NCBI RefSeq assembly: GCF_016595415.1
Contig: NZ_JAENIO010000004.1
Coordinates: forward strand, 1-64,000
Origin: Roseibacillus ishigakijimensis
Lineage (GTDB): Bacteria > Verrucomicrobiota > Verrucomicrobiia > Verrucomicrobiales > Akkermansiaceae
Reading direction: 5' to 3'
Length of the DNA: 64,000 nt
Part shown: piece by piece, positions 40,822 to 44,439 of the stretch
How the letters are laid out: each line of letters starts with the position of its first letter
Position numbering within the stretch: position 1 is the first letter of the stretch
Notes under the pieces: model-generated
Told to the model about the DNA's origin: nothing
The model's input: only the letters and a program-made list of their open reading frames with translations
The model's database searches: none
Position numbers and translations under genes: made by a program

Positions 40822-40941
40822 ATGTTTTCACCCACTGCTCTGCAGATCATCATCTATGGCTCCCTCCTCTGGACCAGCCTCGCCTTCCTGGCCCTCGCCT
40901 TGCTTTTCTTTCGCGATCTCAAAAATAAAAACCTCTGGTAA
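40822..40941 (+). CDS. 39-residue single-span membrane protein, symporter accessory candidate
   Basis: A short frame of 39 codons plus stop: MFSPTALQIIIYGSLLWTSL, then AFLALALLFFRDLKNKNLW. It forms one strong membrane helix with a positively charged C-terminal end. It starts 22 bases after the symporter stop and ends 3 bases before the pyrB start codon. Similar tiny subunits (MetS-type and symporter small accessory proteins) are known to follow transporter genes. Its membrane topology and tight packing make chance unlikely. Function is inferred from position. Confidence 0.7.
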   Translation: MFSPTALQIIIYGSLLWTSLAFLALALLFFRDLKNKNLW

Positions 40942-40944
40942 ACC

Positions 40945-42036
40945 ATGAACGACGACCTGCCCATCGCCGAGAACAAACAAGCGCCCTTCCTCGATCCTCC
41001 GGTGGATTCCGAGGCCACTCGCCCCGAGCCCTCCGGCCTTTTCACCAACAATCCCGTCAATTTCGACACCCTGGAAGAGCTGGCCGGAACCAATATCCTC
41101 AGCGCCACCCAGTTCACCTTCGATCAAGTGGCCGAGCTCTGCAAACTGGCCGCCGTTTTGGAAAAAATCGAAGTCTGGCCCTACCACCCCCTCGACGGGA
41201 AAATCGTGGTCACCGCCTTCTTCGAGCCCTCCACCCGCACCCGCATCTCCTTCGAAAGCGCGGTTCACCGGCTGGGCGGCAAGGTCATCTCCATCGCCGA
41301 CGGCACCACCACTGGCCAGGCCAAAGGTGAATCCCTGGGCGATATTGGCGAAATGTTCAACGCCTACGCCGACCTCGTGGTCATGCGTCACACCGAGACC
41401 ACCGCACCGGAACAAATCCTCGAGAACATGCGCATCCCCCTTGTCAATGCGGGCAACGGCTCTGGCGAGCACCCCACCCAGGCCCTCGCGGACTGGTTCG
41501 CCCTCCTCAAGTGGCGACCCGAACTGGCCGCTCCCAAGCCCCCCGAAGCCCCCAAGCTCCACCTCGGCATTCTCGGCACCCCGGGCTCCATGCGCGCGGT
41601 GAAATCTTTCCTCCTTCTCTCCCTTCTTTTCAAAGACCACATCGCCAAGGTGACCGTCATCTCCGAGATGGCCGACCCCTTCGGTGAAGACGTCATCAAC
41701 CACCTCACCGAAGCCGATATCGCCTATGAGGTCACCAACGACATCCAAGAAACCATCGCGGACCTCGATGTCGTTTACATGAATTCCATCGCCTTCCTGG
41801 GCGACTCCTACAAGTCCCTCGACGCCCGCTACAAGCTCGATGCGAACAGCCCGCTCAAGCCCGATGCGGTCATTCTCCATCCCCTCGCCCGTCTCGACGA
41901 GCTCGACACCTCCTTGGACAAGACTCCCCACAACCTCTACTTCTCCCAGGCCCACGGCGCGGTCTTCATCCGCCAGGCCCTCCTGATGGCCACCCTCGGC
42001 CGCCTCGACAGCCTCCCCCCCTTGGAATCGCTTTAA
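40945..42036 (+). CDS. pyrB: Aspartate carbamoyltransferase catalytic chain
   Basis: 363 residues. Carbamoyl-phosphate binding site FFEPSTRTRISFESAVHRLG and the HPTQALADWFALLK motif are canonical, and VYMNSIAFLGDSYKSL lies in the aspartate domain. It makes carbamoyl-aspartate in pyrimidine synthesis. Typical chains are about 310 residues; here ~45 extra N-terminal residues (MNDDLPIAENKQAPFLDP...) are Pro/Glu-rich and likely disordered. No pyrI (regulatory chain) is nearby. It is translated 3 bases after the small membrane protein. Confidence 0.95.
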   Translation: MNDDLPIAENKQAPFLDPPVDSEATRPEPSGLFTNNPVNFDTLEELAGTNILSATQFTFDQVAELCKLAAVLEKIEVWPYHPLDGKIVVTAFFEPSTRTRISFESAVHRLGGKVISIADGTTTGQAKGESLGDIGEMFNAYADLVVMRHTETTAPEQILENMRIPLVNAGNGSGEHPTQALADWFALLKWRPELAAPKPPEAPKLHLGILGTPGSMRAVKSFLLLSLLFKDHIAKVTVISEMADPFGEDVINHLTEADIAYEVTNDIQETIADLDVVYMNSIAFLGDSYKSLDARYKLDANSPLKPDAVILHPLARLDELDTSLDKTPHNLYFSQAHGAVFIRQALLMATLGRLDSLPPLESL

Positions 42037-42047
42037 TCCTTTCGATG

Positions 42048-42078
42048 GCAGAGTTAAGAGTGCAGAGTTAAGAGTTTC
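42048..42078 (+). repeat. Left heptad repeat array (GAGTTAA type)
   Basis: Heptads GAGTTAA, GAGTGCA, GAGTTAA, GAGTTTC follow each other at 42051-42078. The first part is a perfect tandem 14-mer GCAGAGTTAAGAGT (42048-42061 and 42062-42075). It includes the stop codon of the minus-strand four-helix gene. The opposite-orientation partner is at 42438-42472. Confidence 0.85.
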
Positions 42079-42439
42079 GACGATTCTTGTTCACCACCGT
42101 CACGAAAATCGCGATGAGCTCGTCGGCTTCCCTCTCAAGACCCTCCAATCTTTCCGCTGCCATCAGTTCACCCCTCCGTATCAACTCCAGCCAGTAGCTT
42201 GTTTCATCCAACTCCTTCAAACAATCCCCCATCTTGGCGAGGAACTCGGCTTGAGAACGAGCCCGGCAAGCTTCGCGATGATTGGCTCCCACCGATGAGC
42301 TGCTCCGCAACATCTGCACCCCGAAAGCTTTCGATTCCTGACTTCGCGGCAGAGCCCGATACAGTGCCAGACACCGTAACGAAAAAACCATTAGCCTTTC
42401 TCTCAACTCCTTTGTCCTCGGGTCCACCCACCCACCCAC
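42068..42439 (-). CDS. Four-helix-bundle (S23/IVS, Avd-like) protein
   Basis: 123 residues from a GTG at 42439 (GTG at 42427 is also possible). The family core is visible: VQMLRSSSSVGANHREACRA, SQAEFLAKMGDCLKELDETS and YWLELIRRGELMA, as in proteins encoded by 23S rRNA intervening sequences and in diversity-generating retroelement Avd proteins. The family is a small basic four-helix bundle, probably nucleic-acid binding. Here it stands alone on the opposite strand to pyrB and asnB, inside inverted heptads. No 23S rRNA or retroelement is near. Confidence 0.88.
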   Translation of the reverse strand: MGGWVDPRTKELRERLMVFSLRCLALYRALPRSQESKAFGVQMLRSSSSVGANHREACRARSQAEFLAKMGDCLKELDETSYWLELIRRGELMAAERLEGLEREADELIAIFVTVVNKNRRNS

Positions 42440-42472
42440 TCTAAACTCTGAACTCCCAACTCTAAACTCAAA
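42438..42472 (+). repeat. Right heptad repeat array (ACTCTAA type)
   Basis: Five consecutive heptads: ACTCTAA, ACTCTGA, ACTCCCA, ACTCTAA, ACTCAAA. Read on the other strand they match the left array at 42048-42078, so the pair forms an imperfect inverted repeat around the four-helix gene. It ends 2 bases before the asnB start codon and leaves no recognisable ribosome binding site for asnB. Confidence 0.85.
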
Positions 42473-42474
42473 TC

Positions 42475-44439
42475 ATGTGCGGAATCGCCGGATACTTCAC
42501 CACCAAAGGCCTCACTGAAAATGCTCCCGACATCGTCAATGCCCAATTGGAGACGATCAAACACCGGGGTCCCGATGCCTTCAATCAACACCTCGATCGG
42601 GAGCGCGGACTCGCCCTAGGACACTCGCGGCTTATCATTAACGATTTCGAGCACGGAGCGCAGCCTCTCTTTACGCCCGACAAGAGCCACTATCTCACCG
42701 TCAATGGCGAGTTCTATGACTTCAAGCGCTACCGCTCCACCCTGATGGCGGAGGGGCAACGCTTTCTCACCAAGTCAGATTCTGAAATTGCGCTCGGACT
42801 CTACCGCAAGATGGGACTCGATTTCTTCGAGTGCCTTCGCGGCGAATTCGCCTTCGCACTCTACGACCAAAAAGAAGACGAGCTCATTCTCGCGCGAGAC
42901 CGCTTCGGGGTGAGACCTCTTTTCTACTACGTTTCTGGTAACAAAGACACCATCGTCTGGGGCTCGGAGGCCAAAGCCGTCCTCGCCCACCCCGAGGTAG
43001 AGGCCCGGCTCGACCCCAAGGCCGCTCTCCATCAGTTGATGCAGACCATCGCGCCGGGCATGAGTGCTTTTTCGAATGTCCACTCGCTCTCGCCCGGTCA
43101 TTTCCTCCGCATTCGCAAGCGCAACGGCTCACTTGAAATCACGCAGGAACGCTACTGGGACTTCGACTTTCCCACCGAAGAAGAACGCCCCAAGGAGATC
43201 AGCGAGAAGGAAGAAGAGGAGCACGTCGAACGCATCCGCGCCGAGCTCATCGACGCCATCGTCAAGCGCCTCGAAGCCGATGTTCCCGTAGGCTCCTACC
43301 TCTCCGGCGGCATCGACTCCTGTTGCATCCTCGGCCTTGCTAGTGGTGCCATGCAGAGCCCGGTGAAGGCCTACACCATCTCCTTCGACGACGACCAATA
43401 CGACGAGGCTCCCATTGCGAAGGAAATGGCCGAGTCCATGAACGCCGACCAGCACGTCATCAACCTGAAAGCCGAGGATCTCTACGGCCAGAACTACATC
43501 GACACCGTTTGGCACGCCGAGCGCACCTTCTACAACACCCTCGGCGTGGCGAAGAATCTGATGTCCAAGACCGTGTGGGAATCCGGCTACCGCTGCGTCG
43601 TCACGGGCGAGGGCGCGGACGAACTCTTTGCCGGCTACCCCGCCCTCAAGCGCGACATGTTCTTGCATGGCATCAGCCACGAGCCCGCCAGCGTGCGCGC
43701 CGAATACCAAGCCGCCCTCGAGCGCACCAACAGCCTTTTCAAAGGAGCCATTCTTTCCGAAAACGAGCGCACCCACCCGGCTTGGATGGGGCTTTGCGGC
43801 TTCACCCCCTCCTGGCTGCAACCCTGGATGGACACCCTCGACATTGCCCGTCCGCTCCTCGCCGACGATGTCGCCCACGAGCTGCGCGACTACGATCCCA
43901 TTGAGGCCATCGCCGACCGCATTGACGGCTCGATGTTAGAAGGCCGCCATCCCCTCGACATCGCGCAATACACCTGGTCGAAGTGCCAGCTGGAAGGCCA
44001 GATCCTGAACTGGGGCGGCGACCGGGTGGACATGGCCAACTCCATGGAATCCCGTCCTCCCTTCCTCGATCACCACCTCGCCGCCGCCGCCGTGGACGTG
44101 CCACCCAGCCTGCGCATCAAGGGCAATACCGAGAAACACATCCTGCGCGAAGCGGTCAAAGGCGTGCTTCCCGAGGTCCTCTACAAGCGGGAAAAATTCG
44201 CCTTCATGGCTCCGCCCGCCCACACCGACGAGTCGAAAAAGGCCAAGGTCGGCGAGCTCATCAGCAGCTTCCTCAACGAGGACACCGTGCGCGATGCCGG
44301 ACTCCTTTCCCCCGAGCGCGTGACGCAATTCCTCAACGCCTACCGCGCTGACACCGACCCCACTTCCCTCGTCCGCAAAGACGCTCTCCTCAACCACCTC
44401 CTCTGCCTCCACATTCTGCACCACCAATTTGTGGCGTAG
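42475..44439 (+). CDS. asnB: Asparagine synthase (glutamine-hydrolysing)
   Basis: 654 residues. The N-terminal Ntn glutaminase starts MCGIAGYF with the catalytic Cys2; RGPDAFNQHL and HSRLIINDF follow. The synthetase domain has the PPi loop VGSYLSGGIDSCCILG and VTGEGADELFAGYPALKRD. It amidates aspartate using glutamine and ATP; some members amidate other acids in exopolysaccharide or peptide synthesis. The gene follows the heptad element with a 2-base gap and no Shine-Dalgarno, so its translation signal has probably been altered. Confidence 0.92.
   Translation: MCGIAGYFTTKGLTENAPDIVNAQLETIKHRGPDAFNQHLDRERGLALGHSRLIINDFEHGAQPLFTPDKSHYLTVNGEFYDFKRYRSTLMAEGQRFLTKSDSEIALGLYRKMGLDFFECLRGEFAFALYDQKEDELILARDRFGVRPLFYYVSGNKDTIVWGSEAKAVLAHPEVEARLDPKAALHQLMQTIAPGMSAFSNVHSLSPGHFLRIRKRNGSLEITQERYWDFDFPTEEERPKEISEKEEEEHVERIRAELIDAIVKRLEADVPVGSYLSGGIDSCCILGLASGAMQSPVKAYTISFDDDQYDEAPIAKEMAESMNADQHVINLKAEDLYGQNYIDTVWHAERTFYNTLGVAKNLMSKTVWESGYRCVVTGEGADELFAGYPALKRDMFLHGISHEPASVRAEYQAALERTNSLFKGAILSENERTHPAWMGLCGFTPSWLQPWMDTLDIARPLLADDVAHELRDYDPIEAIADRIDGSMLEGRHPLDIAQYTWSKCQLEGQILNWGGDRVDMANSMESRPPFLDHHLAAAAVDVPPSLRIKGNTEKHILREAVKGVLPEVLYKREKFAFMAPPAHTDESKKAKVGELISSFLNEDTVRDAGLLSPERVTQFLNAYRADTDPTSLVRKDALLNHLLCLHILHHQFVA

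Follow-up and report, generated by a model that had tools for sequence, protein, structure and literature searches.

A single S23/IVP gene between inverted heptad arrays at a pyrB-asnB junction: a probable compact mobile element

The window, a stretch of 64,000 nucleotides, belongs to contig C137 of a draft genome of 4.14 Mb (G000) and carries a unit of approximately 425 bp (42048 to 42472) between two protein genes on the plus strand. To its left lies a pyrB-like gene for an aspartate/ornithine carbamoyltransferase (40945 to 42036; PF02729, PF00185) and to its right asnB, the gene for asparagine synthase (42475 to 44439; PF00733, PF13537). The extent of the unit is based on four relatives with an empty pyrB-asnB junction and on a homologous unit in another genome (G100). 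Its left end consists of about four GAGTTNN-type heptads on the plus strand (42048 to 42076; TRF period 7/14 and motif search), its right end of about 4.6 heptads of the form ACTCTNA (42437 to 42469; TRF and arm alignment), which read GAGTTNN on the minus strand. The left array reads GCAGAGTTAAGAGTGCAGAGTTAAGAGTT and the right array CACTCTAAACTCTGAACTCCCAACTCTAAACTC, both with a TRF period of 7, and they nearly touch the flanking genes: 12 bases separate the pyrB stop codon from the left array, and 6 bases the right array from the asnB ATG. The original prediction described the two arrays as reverse complements of each other, which is correct for the GAGTTNN core but not base for base; aligning the left arm to the reverse-complemented right arm gives a score of 32. 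Sites resembling GAGTTNNGAGTT occur 10 times in the window against 2.8 +/- 1.6 in shuffled sequences (none of the 100 shuffles contains as many), and seven of the ten fall within the two arrays. Chance or a local artefact as the source of the heptad pattern is ruled out by these shuffles and by the controls on mismatched loci and outer flanks described below.

The gene of the unit is a minus-strand ORF (42068 to 42439), antisense to the pyrB-asnB pair. Its product passes the curated cut-off of both S23/IVP profiles, with 62.9 bits against 33.8 for PF05635 and 86.4 bits against 24 for TIGR02436 ('four helix bundle protein'). The AlphaFold2 monomer model (mean pLDDT 94.7) has four helices, at residues 7-29, 34-58, 63-89 and 95-121, arranged as an antiparallel four-helix bundle. 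The best PDB matches found by Foldseek with this model are 2RLD (E 2e-6, TM about 0.8-0.9) and 2GSC, both of the S23 family; a more distant and weaker match is Avd of diversity-generating retroelements (DGRs; 4DWL, also 8UB7). The family named in the original prediction is thus correct on both profiles, whereas its length of 123 residues probably is not, because alignment with the closest relative (L327) makes the GTG at 42427 the likelier start codon, giving 119 aa. Between these two genes dN/dS is about 0.16, and values of 0.06-0.16 across S23/IVP comparisons show that the protein is maintained under purifying selection. The profile search yields no second gene inside the unit: PF05635 is its sole Pfam match, and an encoded recombinase, transposase or reverse transcriptase (RT) is absent by the same profiles.

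A search of the window against Rfam returned neither rRNA nor any other Rfam family, in line with the earlier statement that no rRNA is involved. The accompanying statement that there is no retroelement here also holds: no RT with a template repeat adjoins the gene, and the sole RVT_1 match of the source genome sits on a different contig (C149:2058-2702). At approximately 11 kb from that match lies the long frame of an S23-like protein (L006, C149:13804-14007), which may be a DGR-type accessory. It has no arms and scores below the cut-off, and was excluded from the elements discussed here.

We searched pyrB in 60 genomes of the family. An empty pyrB-asnB junction in relatives, as the original prediction anticipated for an inserted unit, was found in four: G024 (same genus, pyrB 93% identical), G011 (same genus, 84%), G047 and G012 all have asnB directly after pyrB, with neither an S23/IVP gene nor heptads. 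The closest relative of the window protein (63% identical) is encoded in another genus, by G100, at the same junction, also antisense and with GAGTTCA arms, so that the two homologous units agree in site and orientation. The junction of G047 is empty although G047 and G100 share a genus; the site is therefore occupied sporadically, either through repeated loss or through repeated insertion at one place. A separate observation concerns the region upstream of pyrB, where a 39-codon ORF for a membrane peptide (MFSPTALQIIIYGSLLWTSLAFLALALLFFRDLKNKNLW, 40822 to 40941) is conserved in the same four genomes; the peptide probably serves the sodium:solute symporter encoded next to it as its small subunit.

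The combination of gene and inverted heptads is not limited to this junction. Six PF05635 matches are present in the source genome (the sixth being the excluded L006), and inverted heptad arms are clear at four of the five loci above the cut-off and weak at the fifth (L001). Every armed locus has its own heptad, and besides pyrB/asnB the flanks include apparent cysD/cysN, metK/ahcY and two nrd genes (flank names other than pyrB-asnB were assigned by eye, not by profile search). At the level of the family, PF05635 is found in 70 of 97 genomes, with 0 to 14 copies each. For 116 family loci, selected by protein score and not by repeats, we compared the left flank with the reverse complement of the right flank: the median score is 34 against 16 for mismatched loci, and a score of at least 26 is reached by 74% of the loci against 2.6% of the mismatched ones. 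The strongest autocorrelation lag is 7 in these flanks, compared to 3, 6 or 21 in outer control regions. Similar figures are obtained outside Verrucomicrobia, where inverted arms are seen at 75% of 63 loci (from 80 named loci of a species collection) against 3% of mismatched loci; these 63 represent Pseudomonadota, Bacteroidota, Clostridia, Desulfobacterota, Elusimicrobia, Caldithrix and others. The expectation that gene and flanking heptads would recur together at other loci is therefore borne out, at four of five genes in the source genome (the fifth being weak) and at about 75% of the loci elsewhere, while about 25% have no recognisable arms at the score threshold used. No S23/IVP profile matches were obtained in phage records. 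Earlier papers noted S23/IVP genes in cas loci (PMC3936711) and in rRNA insertions of CPR (PMC11270868). Consistent with the former, two cyanobacterial plasmids carry S23/IVP units between cas6 and cas4 (L301, L304). Searches of an open-access library, with subscription papers and preprints outside their scope, found no report linking S23/IVP genes to flanking heptads outside rRNA, and the novelty of this link is accordingly provisional.

The heptad itself varies among loci (GTAGCGA, GGTCAGT, AGTTTTC, AGTGATC, AAGACNN and GAGTTNN, among others), whereas the two arms of one locus resemble each other: over 95 loci with two periodic arms, the heptad consensus of both arms is identical at a mean of 5.6 of 7 positions within a locus against 3.6 across loci. 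The same is seen when the site is held constant. In groups of loci with shared flanks, for example an nrd junction occupied in 20 genomes and the metK-ahcY junction in 11, a unit's own left and right arms score 40.9 against 28.5 +/- 1.2 for permuted partners within the site, and none of 5000 permutations scores as high. Both arms thus change in concert at fixed sites. Agreement between the arms is unequal along the heptad: with the columns anchored on AG, which is thereby fixed, the arms match in 80-95% at the remaining three core positions and in 66% at the two spacer positions. Pseudoalteromonas shows this most plainly, with a core TCAGC common to both arms and spacers that are uniformly unlike (TCAGCTA against TCAGCGG). 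Most arms count 2-5 heptads, and the median unit length is 471 bp.

The arms also have a direction. Of 133 loci read inward from their ends, 117 contain more AG than CT (11 are opposite) and 122 more G than C (8 opposite), showing that heptad polarity is fixed as NNAGNNN inward from both ends. Since a mere hairpin would not need such a polarity, it suggests strand-specific recognition at both ends. A strict code between protein and heptad was rejected: for pairs that are not orthologous, protein identity and heptad similarity are only weakly correlated (Spearman 0.056), and between loci the similarity of the heptads drops quickly as the proteins diverge, a weaker relation than a strict code would give. 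Any protein-heptad code would therefore have to turn over fast. In addition, the S23/IVP proteins of one site form site-specific clades across genera, which makes many copies old residents, and the pattern may be shaped by loss or homing rather than frequent jumping.

Movement can be followed on plasmids, where S23/IVP genes occur mainly in cyanobacterial records and inverted heptads are present at all 11 loci inspected. Homologous plasmids provide filled and empty sites that are about 90-95% identical. They include a TraM site (with a unit in L303 and L310, without one in L307 and L308), an integrase site (unit in L297 and L298, none in L311-L313) and a third site (unit in L302, none in L314-L316). 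One operon has a unit in its second junction in L296, a different unit in its first junction in L318 and L320, and none in L319 and L321. The empty site has an overlapping TAATG, which in L296 reads TA-ATG-[unit]-ATG, so that stop and start are both kept. This clean target duplication (3 bp, ATG) is confined to L296; the other junctions are blurred, ambiguous or have lost bases. The unit of L302 aligns with that of L318 over 432 bp at 80% identity; the alignment stops at the arms, and the flanks are unrelated. L325 represents a third place of the same unit. A copy of approximately 170 bp (L324) keeps both ends of this unit but no full gene. The gene is antisense to the operon in L299, L300, L327 and the window, and both orientations of insertion exist. 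Judged by what is asked of a transposable element, one unit at unrelated sites is found for the plasmid relatives and not for the window copy itself, and an empty orthologous site is found for both. Gene and arms thus appear, with good support from these comparisons, to sit and move together as one unit of approximately 430-500 bp. The reading of the original prediction as a minimal mobile element is largely supported by the empty sites, the other loci with gene and heptads, and the occurrence of one unit of approximately 430 bp at several unrelated plasmid sites.

An expectation stated in advance concerned Xanthomonas, in which GGGAATC heptamers form 70-75 convergent inverted pairs with a role still to be elucidated (PMC4692102). 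Xanthomonas is also the genus of XCC0516 (2GSC), and a genome with such repeats was expected to contain an S23/IVP gene flanked by GGGAATC arms. Among 369 gammaproteobacterial genomes, three tandem GGGAATC were found in one, G527. It has exactly one S23/IVP gene, which is, as expected, bracketed by GGGAATC arms; the gene lies between apparent accB and accC and seems frameshifted. Elsewhere in G527 a gene-less GGGAATC pair (L393) has both ends and some internal sequence in common with this locus (L395). By their retained ends, L393 and the plasmid copy L324 are recognisable as gene-less copies with an internal deletion.

Heptad arrays that lack the gene occur in the source genome and in others. 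A scan of approximately 580 kb of the source genome yields four strong period-7 arrays, three of which have the GAGTT core of the window element, and no arrays of period 5, 6, 8, 10, 11 or 13 (N runs set aside). Among 145 family genomes, GAGTTNN arrays are most numerous in G100 (33, against 0 for the reversed-pattern control); the source genome has 22 (control 11). Such arrays are also present in genomes without a known window-type gene, for example G072 and G132, and a link between the abundance in G100 and its window-type unit is therefore suggestive only. One array pair of G100 (L360) is a gene-less inverted GAGTTNN pair lying, apparently in frame, within a coding region, and is counted with L324 and L393 among the gene-less copies. 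Single-orientation arrays without an S23/IVP gene are common. Heptads spread genome-wide without the gene had been named beforehand as an argument against mobility; this is seen in part, and some of them are the gene-less deletion copies of the unit just mentioned (L324, L393).

Several of these arrays merit separate description. Between apparent cas2 and cas1 on contig C126 of the source genome (L017, 43937-44032), a long single-orientation array runs from GAGTTGA and GAGTTCA to GAGTTTT with no S23/IVP gene. On the same contig 13 tandem AAGATTC (41648-41742; L278:1648-1742) repeat a heptad that recurs in the metK-ahcY element (L002), within its right arm. Plasmid pNsp_c of Nostoc ATCC 53789 (L309) has, at the TraM site filled in L303, inverted arrays with approximately 150 bp between them and no gene. 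In Pseudoalteromonas G146, TCAGC pairs surround an S23/IVP gene (L377), a segment of 56 bp (L376, contig C31) and other ORFs (L374, L375). The 56 bp resemble a transcription terminator hairpin; the pairs on contigs C4 and C9 (L374, L375) span 820 and 1263 bp in which there are other small ORFs but no S23/IVP gene, and it is possible that these ORFs are cargo or unrelated neighbours.

Summarizing, we consider it probable (roughly 0.78) that the window unit is a compact mobile element with one S23/IVP gene, ending on either side in an array of a few heptads, the two arrays being inverted. In a mechanism that fits, the bundle protein, pentameric in solved relatives, would bind both terminal heptad arrays of the element that encodes it and thereby define the unit. 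Such binding would explain why the core of approximately 5 bases is common to the arms while the 2-base spacer drifts, and is suggested by the concerted change of the core (less so of the spacer), the fixed polarity and the gene-less copies. The protein would also direct insertion next to stop and start codons, in trans for gene-less copies too, like RAYT on REPs. Cutting and joining might be an unrecognised activity of the S23/IVP protein or be borrowed from the host. The intervening sequences (IVSs) of 23S rRNA would then represent this very element trapped in rRNA, with RNase III able to remove it from the transcript. The wider proposal is tentative, with somewhat less than even odds. It holds that S23/IVP units are an autonomous mobile class, the sole encoded protein of which, a small four-helix bundle with no catalytic fold known for DNA cutting, reads strand-polar heptads at both ends and drives the movement of its own unit and of gene-less arrays; that the heptad core is an element-specific address changing in concert; and that rRNA IVSs, cyanobacterial heptanucleotide repeats and Xanthomonas GGGAATC are all products.

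Selection on RNA might also maintain the arms. They could form an mRNA stem that is cut by RNase III, freeing the S23/IVP message from that of the operon, and their symmetry in DNA would be a by-product. The operon-strand RNA of the window unit folds with the arms as closing stem (z -1.9), many insertions lie inside operons, and in Coxiella the IVS is cut out by RNase III at its terminal stem (PMC4990558). However, arm mismatches have no G-U bias on the gene-sense strand (50 of the G-U type against 90 of the A-C type, with 234 transversions), a spectrum on which we rejected an RNA stem as sole driver of the arms. The uniformly unlike spacers of Pseudoalteromonas, the single-orientation arrays and the gene-less units inside coding regions also argue against this explanation, which we regard as rather unlikely. 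We think it improbable that the gene is an immobile host gene, the product of which controls the operon around it by binding the heptads there, as TRAP does on repeated triplets. The position between neighbouring operon genes, sites conserved across genera, purifying selection, fixed polarity and few units per arm would all suit a resident regulator, but the host genes are unrelated, the flanking genes have no common function, close relatives have empty sites, and units have moved between plasmids and occur in both orientations.

Copying by an RT encoded elsewhere, with the S23/IVP protein as an Avd-like accessory, is suggested by the resemblance of the fold to DGR Avd (4DWL, 8UB7) and by the one RVT_1 gene of the source genome. 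It seems very improbable given that G092, which has the most copies (14), is without an RVT_1 match, as are G006, G019, G027, G036 and G051 with several copies each; dependence of the units on RT was rejected on these genomes. Finally, slippage-prone heptad arrays might arise alone, with S23/IVP genes inserting into them afterwards. Gene-less arrays do exist in the source and other genomes, and heptamers are the most abundant class among repeats of 5-11 nt in many genomes (PMC4679880). Hot spots of this kind are nonetheless hardly credible as an explanation, for the empty sites are without arrays, the arms travel with the gene, and the arms are inverted and mutually matching, with an inward polarity fixed across phyla.

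The shared anatomy of a gene with inverted heptad arms, present or missing at many sites in different phyla, links three separate questions: what S23/IVP proteins do, where 23S rRNA IVSs come from (PMC4990558) and what role bacterial heptamers have (PMC4692102). For the 'four helix bundle proteins' structures have been solved without a function being assigned. Should the S23/IVP protein be the mobility factor, the units would constitute a transposition system without a known nuclease fold.

Several known systems share features with the unit. Tandem units of 7 bases are also seen in the heptamer repeats of bacteria, namely Xanthomonas GGGAATC, GGGGA(C/T)T in Nostoc (PMC4692102), TAACTGA in Beggiatoaceae (PMC4679880) and the cyanobacterial STRRs; the passages describing such repeats in these two papers draw no tie to S23/IVP genes or mobility. 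Like MITEs, the gene-less S23/IVP copies (L324, L393) keep both ends and lose the interior, but no transposase family with matching ends was identified for S23/IVP units. RAYTs (TnpA-REP) with their REPs and REPINs likewise combine one small gene between inverted short repeats with scattered, gene-less and seemingly related repeats. RAYTs belong to the Y1 (HUH) transposases and REPs are palindromic, whereas the window unit has PF05635 as its only Pfam match and ends in tandem heptads. With DGR Avd the window protein shares the four-helix-bundle fold (Foldseek 4DWL, 8UB7), but neither a template repeat nor an RT adjoins the window gene, and we know of no report of Avd bracketed by heptads. The 23S rRNA IVSs of Coxiella burnetii and Leptospira encode the same protein family, and in Coxiella the likeness extends to size, terminal inverted repeats and heptamers: its IVS measures 428 nt, has the S23p ORF inside terminal inverted repeats of 28 bp, as the window unit has its own ORF inside inverted arms, and carries tandem GACAGAT heptamers ahead of the S23p start, with a copy number that varies between strains (PMC4990558). 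The window unit differs in that it lies between protein genes rather than within an rRNA helix (23S or 16S), and in that it runs antisense to the operon. The origin of the IVS was called unclear, a mobile origin having been proposed earlier (PMC4990558). With GACAGAT heptads before its S23 gene, the Coxiella IVS as published makes the 23S rRNA IVSs look like the S23/IVP heptad element inserted in rRNA.
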